Assembly: GCA_002953655.1 (NCBI GenBank)
Contig: CP025839.1
Span: forward strand, 1,860,001 to 1,924,000
Direction: 5' to 3'
DNA length: 64,000 nucleotides
Origin: Latilactobacillus sakei
GTDB lineage: Bacteria; Bacillota; Bacilli; Lactobacillales; Lactobacillaceae
Shown: positions 1 through 59,937 of the stretch, in pieces
Position numbering within the stretch: the stretch's first letter is position 1
Layout: each line of letters starts with the position of its first letter
Translations under genes and position numbers: made by a program
Notes under the pieces: generated by a model
The model's input: only the letters and a program-made list of their open reading frames with translations
The model's database searches: none
What the model was told of the DNA's origin: nothing

Positions 1-162
1 AGTGACAAGGTCGGCAATAAAGGCTACTTCAGCATGAGCGACGCTTGGTTTGATGACTACGTATACGAAGTGGTTATCAAAAAAGAATACCTCACAAAAG
101 AAGAACAAGCCTTACTAGACCAAACCCCAATCAAACTAGACCCATGGGACGCACTCCAATAA
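1..162 (+). CDS. Aminopeptidase C paralogue, C-terminal fragment (runs off left edge)
   Basis: The first 53 codons read open from base 1 to a TAA at 160-162. The peptide (SDKVGNKGYFSMSDAWFDDY onward, ending DPWDALQ) aligns with the C-terminal end of the intact PepC encoded just downstream, whose matching segment reads GDKVGTKGYFVMSDSWFDEF and ends near DPMGALASR. It is therefore the end of a second C1B (bleomycin-hydrolase family) cysteine aminopeptidase in tandem with pepC. The sequences differ enough that this is an old duplication, not a recent copy. The catalytic Cys and His lie outside the window, so activity cannot be judged. Confidence 0.85.
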   Translation, partial: SDKVGNKGYFSMSDAWFDDYVYEVVIKKEYLTKEEQALLDQTPIKLDPWDALQ

Positions 163-167
163 AATAA

Positions 168-470
168 GTGCGTTCAAGCTGGTCAACTTTTGAGCATTAG
201 CACAGAAAGTTAGCTTGAAAAGCACATTAAGAAAGAAGTGCGTCATCAACAAGTAACTTCTGTGCACTTACAGCACTTGACGAATTGGCGATGCAATCGC
301 TGATTTGGCAAGTGAGGTAAGGCGGAAGAAGTTGTTGATGAAAGCACGTTAAAGAAAGAAGTGCGTTCAAACCAGTTATATTCCGAGTACTAGCGTAACA
401 AGGTGAATGATTACTGGAAGTAATCGTTTGACTTGTGGCGCTAGACACAGGAATATGGTTTGAAAAGCAC
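168..470. repeat. Array A: three tandem hairpin repeats (168-225, 238-347, 361-470)
   Basis: Three units each begin GTGC and end GCAC, separated by 12-13 bp A-rich linkers (226-237, 348-360). Units 2 and 3 are each 110 bp with a 123-bp period; unit 1 is a 58-bp version lacking the middle. Each unit is an interrupted inverted repeat. Unit 1 pairs TTCAAGCT with AGCTTGAA, unit 2 TCATCAACAA with TTGTTGATGA, and unit 3 TTCAAACC with GGTTTGAA, then ATATTCC/GGAATAT, CTAGCG/CGCTAG and GATTAC/GTAATC. The stem sequence differs between units while pairing is kept. The same family occurs at 58912-59265. It fills the gap between the two pepC genes. No coding frame of note was seen in it. Confidence 0.85.
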
Positions 471-518
471 GTTAAGAAATATCAATAATCCATCCCAATT
501 CTCAAGGAGGTTTTTTCA

Positions 519-1865
519 ATGGTTCAAGCTATCACACCCGAAAATATTCAACAATTCAAAGCCGATTTCAAGGCGGTTCCACAATCAAACGTCATTAAAA
601 ATACGGTGATGAACAACGGCTTTTTAGCCAGCAGTCAAAATACAACTTCAAAGGCTTTGATGGACCCAGTCTTTTCAATCGATTTAGATACTGGCGCCGT
701 TTCAAATCAAAAGCAATCCGGCCGTTGCTGGATGTTTGCCGCATTAAATACGATGCGTCATAGCTTACAAGCACAATTCAAGATTAAGGATTTCGAACTT
801 TCGCAAAATTATACGAACTTCTGGGATAAATTCGAAAAATCAAACTACTTCTACGAAAATGTTTTAAAAACCGCCAATCAACCAATCGGTGATCGCAAAG
901 TCGACTTTTTAATGACGACACCCCAACAAGACGGTGGTCAATGGGATATGTTATGCGCCCTCATCGAAAAATACGGGATTGTGCCTAAGTCAGTCATGCC
1001 CGAAACTTATAACAGTGAGAAATCAAGCGAACTCAACAGTGTCTTGAACCTTAAACTCAGAAAAGATGCCGTCACCCTTCGTCAATTGGTTGCCGATGGT
1101 GTCAGCGAAGCTGATATCCAAGCAAAGAAGGATACAATGTTGACTGAAGTTTACCGGATGCTTGTTTTCGCATTGGGCGAACCCCCTGTTGAATTTGACT
1201 TCGAATACCGCGATGATGACCACAACTACCACATTGAAAAGGGCCTCACACCACAAACTTTTTATCAAAAATATGTTGGTTGGGACCTCGAAAATTACGT
1301 TTCATTAATCAATTCCCCAACAGCGGACAAACCATACAACCACTTATATAGCGTCGAAATGCTCGGCAACGTGGTTGGCGGCCGTGAAGTTCGCCATTTG
1401 AATCTTGATATCGATGATTTCAAACAACTTGCCATCAAACAACTCCAAGCTGGCGAATCAGTTTGGTTTGGTAGCGATGTTGGCCAATCATCCGACCGTA
1501 AACTGGGTATCATGGATACGGAAATCTATCAAAAAGCAGCATTACTCAACATGGACCTTTCAATTTCTAAAGGCGAACGCCTAGATTACGGTGAAAGTTT
1601 AATGACGCATGCAATGGTCATTACTGGCGTTGATATCGTTGATGGTCAACCAACGAAATGGAAGGTTGAAAACTCATGGGGCGATAAAGTCGGTACTAAG
1701 GGCTACTTCGTCATGAGCGACAGCTGGTTTGACGAATTCGTCTACCAAATCGTCATCAACAAACGCTTCTTAACAGCAGAAATGCAACGGATTGAAAAAG
1801 AAGAATACGATCACCCAACCGTTCTCGCACCATGGGATCCAATGGGCGCATTAGCAAGTCGCTAA
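519..1865 (+). CDS. pepC: Aminopeptidase C (cysteine aminopeptidase, C1B family)
   Basis: A 448-residue cytoplasmic aminopeptidase of the PepC/bleomycin hydrolase family, which removes N-terminal residues from peptides in lactic acid bacteria. The papain-type triad is visible: Cys70 in QSGRCWMFA, His364 in MTHAMVITG and Asn385 in KVENSWG. Length matches the family (about 440-450). The ATG is preceded by a strong AAGGAGG nine bases upstream, so the start is secure. It lies behind repeat array A and a paralogous pepC end, and is closed by a bidirectional terminator. No clear promoter was found; transcription may arise inside or upstream of the repeat array. Confidence 0.96.
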   Translation: MVQAITPENIQQFKADFKAVPQSNVIKNTVMNNGFLASSQNTTSKALMDPVFSIDLDTGAVSNQKQSGRCWMFAALNTMRHSLQAQFKIKDFELSQNYTNFWDKFEKSNYFYENVLKTANQPIGDRKVDFLMTTPQQDGGQWDMLCALIEKYGIVPKSVMPETYNSEKSSELNSVLNLKLRKDAVTLRQLVADGVSEADIQAKKDTMLTEVYRMLVFALGEPPVEFDFEYRDDDHNYHIEKGLTPQTFYQKYVGWDLENYVSLINSPTADKPYNHLYSVEMLGNVVGGREVRHLNLDIDDFKQLAIKQLQAGESVWFGSDVGQSSDRKLGIMDTEIYQKAALLNMDLSISKGERLDYGESLMTHAMVITGVDIVDGQPTKWKVENSWGDKVGTKGYFVMSDSWFDEFVYQIVINKRFLTAEMQRIEKEEYDHPTVLAPWDPMGALASR

Positions 1866-42714: not shown

Positions 42715-42788
42715 TTATTCCTCCAATATTCTGTGTTTGTTTGACACTCAATAAGTTTCCGGGGCCTATCGTGGGGCAAACAATACCA
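42715..42788 (-). promoter_or_regulatory. L13 ribosomal leader
   Basis: The minus-strand leader between the promoter and rplM contains GTTTGCCCCACGATAGG, then GGAAACTTATT pairing with AATAAGTTTCC-related bases and TGTCAAACAAACAC. GTTTG/CAAAC and GAAACTTATTGAG segments fit the Bacilli L13 leader. Assigned by recognition and position; fold not computed. Confidence 0.65.
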
Positions 42789-57207: not shown

Positions 57208-58066
57208 CTGCTTCCTGTGGTAACTGATCGCGCAACATTGCCGCCAACTCGTGTTCCGTTAACGGTACCTTAGGGAATACAAAGCCCTTCTTGATTAATG
57301 CTTGGGCAAACTGCGTCGTGGTGGGCAGACCTAGTTGTTTAGACGTTAGCCATTCCGGATCGGCAAAAATTTCGCGCGGTGTCCCACTCTTGGCAATCCC
57401 TCCATTTTCCAAGACAACAACGTGATCTGCATAGTTAGCAACATCGTCCATTTGATGTGTAACCATCACAATTGTCATCCCCTGTTCGCGGTGCAGCTTT
57501 TCAAATAAGCCCATCATTTCCCGGCGACCAACTGGATCGAGCCCAGCGGTTGGTTCATCGAGAATTAAGACTTCTGGCTGCATGGCCAAAACACCAGCAA
57601 TTGCAACCCGGCGCATCTGGCCACCGGATAAATCAAATGGTGATTGTTCTAAGACCGCTTCTGGCAGACCAACCAGTTCAACCATTGCTTTAGCCCGTTC
57701 AAGCGCTTCGGCTTCTGGTACCCCGAAATTTTGGGGGCCAAAGGCGATATCCTTTTGGACCGTAGCTTCAAATAATTGACTTTCTGGAAATTGGAAGACC
57801 ATACCAACTTTTTGCCGGATAATCTTCAAATTTTTGTTATTCGTTTCAGGCGTAATTTGGCGCTCACCAATCTGCACGATCCCTTCAGTCGGCTTCAACA
57901 ACGCATTCAAGTGTTGCAATAACGTCGACTTGCCACTGCCGGTATGGCCGATTAATGCTGTATAAGAGCCCGATTCAATCGTTAAATTAATGTGTTTTAA
58001 CCCAATCCCTTGAAAAGGTGTCCCGGGTTGATACGTATAACTTACATCTTTGAATGTAATGTCCAT
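57191..58066 (-). CDS. ecfA2: ECF transporter ATPase EcfA2
   Basis: 291 residues. Walker [10 protein letters not shown], signature [13 protein letters not shown], Walker [12 protein letters not shown]. Pairs with EcfA1 to power uptake of vitamins through EcfT. Overlaps ecfA1 by 25 bp. Confidence 0.95.
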
Positions 58067-58884
58067 AGATGATCAACCATCCTTTCCGTTGTGAGATAGT
58101 CCGCTGGCATCGGTACGCCTAACTTAGTAAGTGCTGCTTTGAGTTTCTCGGGATACGGTACATCTAACCCGAGGTCGAGCAATCGTTGGCCATATGCAAA
58201 GATTTCGGCTGGTGTCCCTTGATCAATCACTTGTCCCTTGTCTAACATAACAATCCGATCCGCACTAGCCGCTTCGTCAATATCATGGGTAATGGAAAGC
58301 ACGGTCATTTTCGTTTCTTGTTTCAACGTATGAATGGTCTCGAGGACTTCTTGGCGTCCCTTAGGATCAAGCATGCTTGTTGCTTCATCGAGAATGAGAA
58401 TCTCAGGTTGTTGGGCGATAATCCCCGCTAATGCCACTCGTTGCTTCTGGCCGCCTGATAAACGACTTGGTTCGCGCGTCATAAATTGGGTCATACCAAC
58501 GCGGTCAACCGCATCTTGAACCCGTCGCTGCATTTCAGTCCGTTCAATCCCTTGGTTTTCCAGACCAAACGCCACATCATCTTCGACCGTCGCGCCAACA
58601 AATTGATTATCCGGATTTTGGAAAACCATGCCAATCTTACGGCGAATGTCCCAAACGGTTTCAATCGATAAGGGTAATCCATCAATCGTAATACTTCCTG
58701 ACTGTAAATCTAATAAGCCATTCAAGGATTTGGCAAACGTACTCTTACCACTCCCATTATGGCCAATAATTGCGACCCACTCATCGGCATTGATGCTGAC
58801 CGATAAATCATTAAGGGCCAACCGATTCGCCTGTGGGTATTCATATTTTAAATGTGTCACTTCTATGATTTTATTTTCATTCAT
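58042..58884 (-). CDS. ecfA1: ECF transporter ATPase EcfA1
   Basis: 280 residues. Walker [10 protein letters not shown], signature [13 protein letters not shown], Walker [12 protein letters not shown]. First gene of the ecf operon. Its ATG is only 28 bp from repeat array B, so the array lies in the leader if transcription starts upstream of it. Confidence 0.95.
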
Positions 58885-58911: not shown

Positions 58912-59265
58912 GTGCCATTTCAAGCGGTAGCTTCTGAGTATAGCATAATCAGGTGAATTAACGATGTAATCGTTGATTTGACTGATGTCGCTAGACGGAA
59001 GAAGTTGCTTGAAAGGGCACGTTTCAATTTAGAGTGCCGTCAAAGCGTTTTGGCTCTGAGCATTAGCCTAGTATCGTGAATAAGCGACACAGTCGATTGT
59101 TTGCGATGCATAGCTAAGCACAAAAGGCAGCTTTGAAAGGCACGTTTCAATTTAGAGTGCCACTTCAAGCGGTAAATTCTGAGTATAGCATAATCAGGTG
59201 AATTAACGATGTAATCGTTGATTTACCTGATGTCGCTAGACGCAAGAAGTTGCTTGAAAGGGCAC
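58912..59265. repeat. Array B: three tandem hairpin repeats (58912-59020, 59034-59143, 59157-59265)
   Basis: Units of 109, 110 and 109 bp begin GTGCC and end GGCAC, separated by identical 13-bp linkers GTTTCAATTTAGA. Outer stems: units 1 and 3 TTCAAGC/GCTTGAA; unit 2 TCAAAGC/GCTTTGA. Inner stems include AACGAT/ATCGTT (units 1, 3) and AAGCGAC/GTCGATT (unit 2). Units 1 and 3 are nearly identical; unit 2 is diverged but keeps the same fold and length. Same family, unit length and spacing as array A at 168-470. It lies in the gap between the rplQ terminator and ecfA1. Confidence 0.87.
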
Positions 59266-59556: not shown

Positions 59557-59937
59557 TTAAACAAGTTCAATAATAACCATTAATGCACCGTCACCACGAC
59601 GAGGGGCTGTTTTAAGAATGCGTGTGTAACCACCATTTCTTTCAGCATAACGTGGAGCAATGTCACTAAATAACTTTTGTAAAGCAGATTGAACGATTAC
59701 AGCATCGTCTTCTTCGCGAATATCAGCTACTTCGTTACGAACGAATGCTGCAGCTTGACGACGAGCGTGTAAATCACCGCGTTTACCTAAAGTGATCATT
59801 TTTTCAGTTGTTTTACGAATTTCTTTGGCACGAGCTTCAGTAGTAACAATACGTTCATTGATGATTAAATCTGTTGTCAAATCACGTAACATTGCTTTAC
59901 GTTGTGAGCTTGTACGACCTAATTTACGATAACTCAT
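59557..59937 (-). CDS. rplQ: Ribosomal protein L17
   Basis: 126 residues with [20 protein letters not shown] and [20 protein letters not shown] typical of bacterial L17. Last gene of the alpha operon, 26 bp after rpoA. Confidence 0.98.

Follow-up and report, generated by a model that had tools for sequence, protein, structure and literature searches.

A dispersed family of structured intergenic repeats in Latilactobacillus sakei, apparently related to EFAR/Efa-1-type elements of Enterococcus and located mainly behind stop codons

The EFAR elements of Enterococcus reportedly are about 170 bp long, consist of two stem-loops and range from 42 to 650 bp through variable assembly; they are said to be miniature insertion sequences that target stem-loops. 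YPAL repeats adjoin stop codons, and a role in termination has been proposed for the REP sequences of Escherichia coli that lie within 15 nt of stop codons. Among the described systems, Efa-1 of Enterococcus faecalis (163 bp, 65 copies) folds as two adjacent stem-loops (PMC2267715), whereas most REP sequences, which are 20 to 40 bp long, carry the tetranucleotide tag GTAG or CGTC at one end (PMC3733652). YPAL, or RU-2, of Yersinia is an intergenic, strongly folded repeat of about 168 bp with target duplications of 3 to 26 bp and a proposed influence on the stability of the upstream transcript, and RUP is linked to IS630-Spn1 (PMC2229807).

We analyzed a 64,000-nt stretch of the L. sakei genome (hereafter, the window), which contains two arrays of hairpin units, the first of them between two pepC-like genes:

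1-162, plus strand: 3' part of the upstream pepC-like gene (Peptidase_C1_2), with the stop codon TAA at 160-162
168-225, plus strand: unit 1, internally deleted form of 58 bp, GTGCG + TTCAAGCT ... AGCTTGAA + AAGCAC
226-237, plus strand: linker 1, ATTAAGAAAGAA
238-347, plus strand: unit 2, complete hairpin of 110 bp
348-360, plus strand: linker 2, GTTAAAGAAAGAA
361-470, plus strand: unit 3, complete hairpin of 110 bp
471-479, plus strand: conserved 3' tail GTTAAGAAA behind unit 3
519-1865, plus strand: downstream pepC-like gene (PF03051, E 9.5e-203)
58912-59265, plus strand: second array; its three unit cores are at about 58912-59020, 59034-59143 and 59157-59265

The coordinates, GTGC...GCAC ends, 110-bp unit length, 123-bp period and A-rich linkers that an earlier note had given for the first array all agree with the sequence, and both flanking open reading frames indeed encode C1-like peptidases of the PepC type (PF03051). 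The upstream gene starts about 1,160 bases ahead of the window and its stop codon is separated from unit 1 by 5 bases; unit 3 and the start codon of the downstream gene are 48 bases apart, and inspection by eye revealed no obvious terminator between them. Units 2 and 3, folded individually, adopt one common interrupted hairpin (-56.6 kcal/mol for a 129-nt stretch with unit 2 and -53.9 kcal/mol for a 128-nt stretch with unit 3). Its parts, from base to tip, are the GTGC/GCAC foot, an outer stem that varies, a bulge of 4 nt confined to the 5' side, a helix of 6-7 bp, a small internal loop, one more helix, and a long inner helix closed by a loop of 3 nt. The covariance model matches cover positions 165-234 (unit 1, 57.6 bits), 235-356 (unit 2, 114.5 bits) and 358-479 (unit 3, 127.0 bits).

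The interpretation of unit 1 as a product of internal deletion holds: a sister genome (G005), in which the downstream pepC is 95% identical to that of the window genome (G000), has the full-length version in the same place. This full-length orthologue contains GCACAG and GCGCAG near the ends of the deleted part, which would fit slippage across the hairpin. Unit 3 also has an orthologue at the same position in G005, and an 88% identical stretch corresponding to unit 2 is present at the same locus in G002. Across six genomes of the genus, the pepC site is an empty gap in G003 (40 nt including flanking bases), contains a decayed remnant in G001, and is occupied by two or three units that differ in kind in G000, G002, G004 and G005.

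The second array of the window is antisense, between rplQ (59557-59937, minus strand) and an ABC transporter gene (58042-58884, minus strand), and both of its linkers are identical (GTTTCAATTTAGA). Known ribosomal leader and downstream elements in the window, on the minus strand, are L13_leader (42730-42787) and L17DE (Rfam RF01708, 59449-59517), the latter about 180 bases from this array. In the region of the units between the pepC-like genes, no Rfam family matched at the gathering score, and the matches up to E = 10 were all at chance level.

The units are members of a family of which more than 130 copies are scattered over the window genome. A hairpin-only scan of 1.66 Mb of this genome yielded 96 matches, ordinary terminators among them, compared to 3 in a shuffled control; a structure-plus-motif scan of 1.66 Mb yielded 105 units, and BLAST of the genome 47 related stretches. 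The covariance model denoted R1 gave 138 matches in the genome, a few of which are weak and lie on the opposite strand of a hairpin already matched (for example, 563802-563924, minus strand). The units of the pepC locus are far above chance expectation. In the 1.66 Mb, the covariance model resolves 136 non-overlapping units in 86 arrays, of which 55 are single, 17 double, 9 triple and 5 fourfold.

These arrays consist of unlike members held together by array-specific linkers. Units of the same array are 65% identical, compared to 63% across arrays, whereas the similarity of linkers is 0.87 inside one array and 0.69 across arrays. The verdict "not CRISPR" in the earlier note is therefore justified, given that units within an array resemble each other like any two units and it is the short linkers that repeat. 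The 3' flank starts with GTTT or GTTA in 75 of the 86 arrays, and most genomic linkers start likewise. Simple tandem duplication is rejected as the general rule of array formation because identity within arrays barely exceeds that between arrays; some duplicated units do occur, and near-identical units are present at unrelated loci. Copying of the linker from the 5' flank of the same array was rejected as well, with a similarity weakly over the background (0.65 vs 0.54).

Two variants of the unit stand out within the genome. In a second unit type, the outer part is kept and the inner stem is a near-perfect helix of about 18 bp, for example ATGAGCGTTATGGTGG/...CCATAACGCTCAT; it was found on contig G000:C1 at about 397733-397983, 693101-693225, 937919-938043 and 211413-211535 (example pieces L028:17733-17983 and L057:17919-18043). 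A subgroup of units (L074:18615-18737, L073:3486-3677, L051:13435-13556 and others) shares the 3' tail GTTTAnACCATCAATATTCGGATATCnAAAAAG, which leads into a terminator and makes up a larger module.

To characterize the structure, we aligned 26 units without gaps over 122 columns. RNAalifold predicts 42 base pairs for this alignment, and 33 of these show a double change at least once. Paired cells amount to 95.5%, compared to 73.2% after shuffling and 29-42% after sliding, and there are 256 double-change cells compared to 78 and 14-42, respectively; none of 500 shuffles reached the observed value of either measure. The earlier observation that stems differ between units while pairing is kept is thus confirmed by compensatory changes in most of the pairs. 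Mutation that perfects palindromes is unlikely to have caused these changes, considering that conserved bulges and wobble pairs persist, and the conserved bulges suggest that the hairpin may be recognized by some protein.

The earlier note allowed for selection on the structure either as RNA or as a DNA cruciform. A cruciform in double-stranded DNA predicts equal numbers of G·U pairs and A·C mismatches, whereas standard-length units contain 215 G·U pairs and 57 A·C mismatches (116 and 50 without three fixed wobble columns); the excess implies that the relevant form is the sense-strand RNA or else single-stranded DNA of the same sense. Together with the sense position behind stop codons described below, this favors the RNA form, at the expense of the cruciform. 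A purely DNA-level element, that is, a cruciform or a binding site for a protein or gyrase with no RNA role, would agree with stems that are perfect or near-perfect in DNA and with the occurrence of antisense copies. We nevertheless regard such an element as highly improbable in view of the strand polarity of the wobble pairs, of which the one at column 48-72 is kept in 43 of 53 units, and of the mostly sense orientation at stop codons.

The location of the arrays relative to genes is far from random. The upstream gene runs in the same direction in 70 of the 86 arrays, and in 62 arrays the distance from a same-strand stop codon to the first unit is at most 18 nt, compared to about 7 arrays expected, with the stop codons taken from greedy ORF calls rather than annotation. 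The 16-nt bin right behind a sense stop, a placement reminiscent of YPAL, accommodates 60 of the 86 arrays, against 7.3 expected and a maximum of 17 in 1000 random placements in the same gaps; trimming of the unit ends makes the distances 4-6 nt too long, and the comparison is valid by virtue of the equal bin width in observed and random data. Among 84 arrays in named genomes, mainly of Levilactobacillus but also of Lapidilactobacillus, Paucilactobacillus, Lacticaseibacillus zhaodongensis and Latilactobacillus fragifolii, 26 are located behind a sense stop, compared to 4.1 expected. On the annotated L. curvatus plasmid pL127-1, an array starts at the stop codon of a DUF6506 gene, and the same placement is seen in some Enterococcus copies. 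About 24 of the 86 arrays depart from the rule: some follow a terminator T-run, where poor transcription would be expected, and about a dozen are antisense, including the second array of the window.

The units themselves do not qualify as intrinsic terminators because they end with GTTTnAAAA, without a T-run, and 28 of the 62 stop-linked cases have a distinct terminator further downstream. The combination of a unit with a following terminator fits the form of Efa-1 and that reported for EFAR. The genes ahead of stop-linked arrays have a mean codon-adaptation percentile of 0.70 (p = 3.5e-8), a bias of the kind typical of better-expressed genes, which could instead mark conserved core genes. The sampled host genes are a mixed set: araD, an MFS transporter gene, cbpA and purB, and genes for a signal peptidase, an OppC-like permease and a mannose-type PTS IID component.

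The tight spacing raises the prospect of a translation-termination element, in which the hairpin would lie directly against the terminating ribosome and modulate termination, recycling or rescue. The distance from stop codon to unit is nearly always below 15 nt, which comes close to the leading edge of a ribosome positioned on that codon, and other genera show this spacing too; in addition, TGA is absent from the 62 upstream stop codons compared to 9% elsewhere, a weak signal. Given that the later units of arrays lie 130-500 nt from the stop codon, so that many units would be unable to act in this manner, and that some single units are away from stop codons, we consider this role quite unlikely as the main one.

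The family was also compared with that of the sister genome G005, of which 0.8 Mb were covered. The 46 array sites of G000 matched in G005 are mostly occupied in both genomes, and the number of units at matched sites, from 1 to 4, differs in steps of about 123 bp. For 46 of the 72 units at these sites there is an orthologue with at least 85% identity; 6 have a closer match elsewhere, and 20 have no match that close. The mean divergence of 34 orthologous unit pairs is 4.3%, against 24% at fourfold sites of genes, with the within-unit value underestimated because the pairs were picked at 85% identity or more.

In these 34 pairs, 61% of the base pairs touched by change are still paired, compared to 38% by chance (sd 3%, maximum 48%), and paired positions, 77% of the unit, receive 55% of the changes. 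Watson-Crick pairs turned into G·U 47 times and into A·C 29 times. All these counts sum both directions of comparison and are accordingly not independent events. The proposal of selection on structure is thus supported twice, by covariation over 42 pairs and by fewer pair-breaking changes between sister genomes than expected by chance. That pairing is selected in copies that stayed put favors use by the host over pure selfishness.

The main contender, a selfish miniature element, is possible, if doubtful. Under this scenario, some mobilizing enzyme recognizes the hairpin, only foldable copies move, and gene ends are harmless and rich in stem-loops. Dozens to more than 100 copies in many genomes with a patchy spread, near-identical copies at unrelated loci, units located behind terminator T-runs, and the reported stem-loop targeting by EFAR would all be accounted for. 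Mere harmlessness, however, leaves the sense orientation and the tight stop spacing unexplained, and a selfish copy should decay freely at sites shared by both sister genomes, where we find selection for pairing. Nor did the comparison of 46-50 orthologous sites reveal a clean insertion with target duplication: most differences are deletion remnants or whole periods, one candidate empty site has a bare terminator in G000, and no target duplications were detected around single units or in the orthologous comparisons. A search of the window genome for the Y1 (TnpA-REP) transposase (PF01797) gave no match, compared to 5 positive among 14 control genomes. This result, together with the different unit size and structure, upholds the statement that the units are no simple REP. 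A phage origin was rejected after blastn found no match in 50,697 phage records and the exact pattern proved absent from viral contigs.

The family extends well beyond the genus. The covariance-model search with R1 produced matches in 52 of 121 sampled Lactobacillaceae genomes, representing 17 of 40 genera; in a pattern search of named genomes, the exact 93-base form had no match, and a looser form did. Outside Lactobacillaceae, R1 weakly matched a few Enterococcaceae (E 2.1e-7 to 7.2e-4 per genome), and BLAST with one of these matches led to an intergenic element of E. faecalis that is common on Enterococcus records and shows, in its fold, the helix order and one-sided 4-nt bulge of the Latilactobacillus units. 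To build a second model, R2, we combined ten Enterococcus elements with one from an L. plantarum plasmid (11 in all); it matches units from several genera of Lactobacillaceae over the full model length and in register, with E from 1.8e-13 to 2.5e-4 (1.8e-13 for L121, 1.6e-10 for Levilactobacillus angrenensis, 9.5e-6 for L. brevis and 2.5e-4 for L. fragifolii); R2-type elements are abundant across Enterococcaceae genomes. R2 had no match in the L. sakei genome at E 1e-5, and R1 no direct match to the E. faecalis and E. faecium elements used to train R2, so the link runs via intermediates.

By their common architecture and homologous sequence, then, the Latilactobacillus units are distant relatives of the Enterococcus repeats, and the view that they resemble no nameable element has to be abandoned: intergenic elements of E. 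faecalis and E. faecium share the architecture, and R2 finds Lactobacillaceae units in register. We take these Enterococcus elements to be EFAR/Efa-1 by organism, size, copy number and two-hairpin form. EFAR-like elements lie on the Enterococcus records L325 and L330 at about 1501, on L321 at about 1503 and at L320:2480-2604; in L325 and L330, they follow the stop codons of a GNAT gene and an AraC-type regulator gene, respectively, by a few bases. An Enterococcaceae genome (G034, L116:1255-1620) contains a tandem array with a period of about 123 bases and distinct but similarly built units. An E. faecalis-like element (95-96% identity) is also present in OL539428.1 and NZ_CP151545.1, labeled as E. 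coli and P. aeruginosa plasmids and possibly mislabeled or contaminated.

Taken together, we hold with evenly balanced confidence that this is an EFAR/Efa-1-related family of structured repeats kept mainly as 3'-untranslated RNA hairpins that probably slow mRNA decay. One unit, or 2-4 unlike units in tandem, would be transcribed together with the upstream gene; the unit would begin approximately where the terminating ribosome releases the mRNA and fold into a hairpin of about 42 bp with conserved bulges. For so stable a hairpin at the 3' end of a message, the simplest action, and most likely the real one, would be to stop 3'-to-5' exonucleases such as PNPase and RNase R and thereby to prolong the life of the upstream message, as proposed for YPAL (PMC2229807) and discussed for REP. 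The close spacing would permit a second action, on the terminating ribosome, from which distant array units are excluded. The sense position could equally stem from an insertion preference. A broader scheme, which we consider unlikely, is an ancient 3'-UTR RNA common to all Lactobacillales, with bulges read by a common RNA-binding protein or nuclease that coordinates the stability of many housekeeping messages; if so, the number of units per gene, which changes fast between sister species, would be a tuning knob.

The family occurs in close to half of the Lactobacillaceae genomes sampled and is linked to abundant Enterococcus repeats, yet has no Rfam entry, for which R1 and R2 are possible seeds. 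It offers, in a single genome, more than 100 natural copies of one RNA structure, each evolving on its own, at a fixed distance from the stop codon and in variable number. This makes it possible to test whether hairpins near stop codons set mRNA lifetime or translation termination, and whether dispersed bacterial repeats are kept by selection for host benefit. In the open-access literature, a scope that leaves out the primary EFAR and YPAL papers, no earlier description of the family in Lactobacillaceae was found. New here are the stop-codon rule, the selection for pairing between sister genomes, the codon bias of the host genes, the composition of the arrays and the link to Enterococcus.

Among the known systems, the family resembles, by description, BOX and RUP of Streptococcus pneumoniae, short folded intergenic repeats that also belong to Lactobacillales. 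With REP and BIME, for which mRNA stabilization has been discussed, it shares dispersed palindromes, a location at gene ends and arrays; it differs from the REP/BIME elements with RAYT (TnpA-REP) in the 110-bp units, as opposed to 20-40 bp, and in that no Y1 transposase gene was found in its own genome. YPAL (De Gregorio et al. 2006), by description also a strong intergenic hairpin near stop codons, comes nearest in known function; it belongs to another phylum and has target duplications, which are not seen here. In relation to the EFAR/Efa-1-type elements of Enterococcus (L320-L328, L330), the Latilactobacillus units are far more divergent, with pairing and the GTGC/GCAC ends retained, and form tandem arrays of 2-4 unlike units. 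Common to both are the outer stem, a 5' bulge of 4 nt (GTTT), the helix order, the position of an internal loop and the 3' tail GTTTAT, and several of the Enterococcus elements likewise stand behind the stop codon of a gene.
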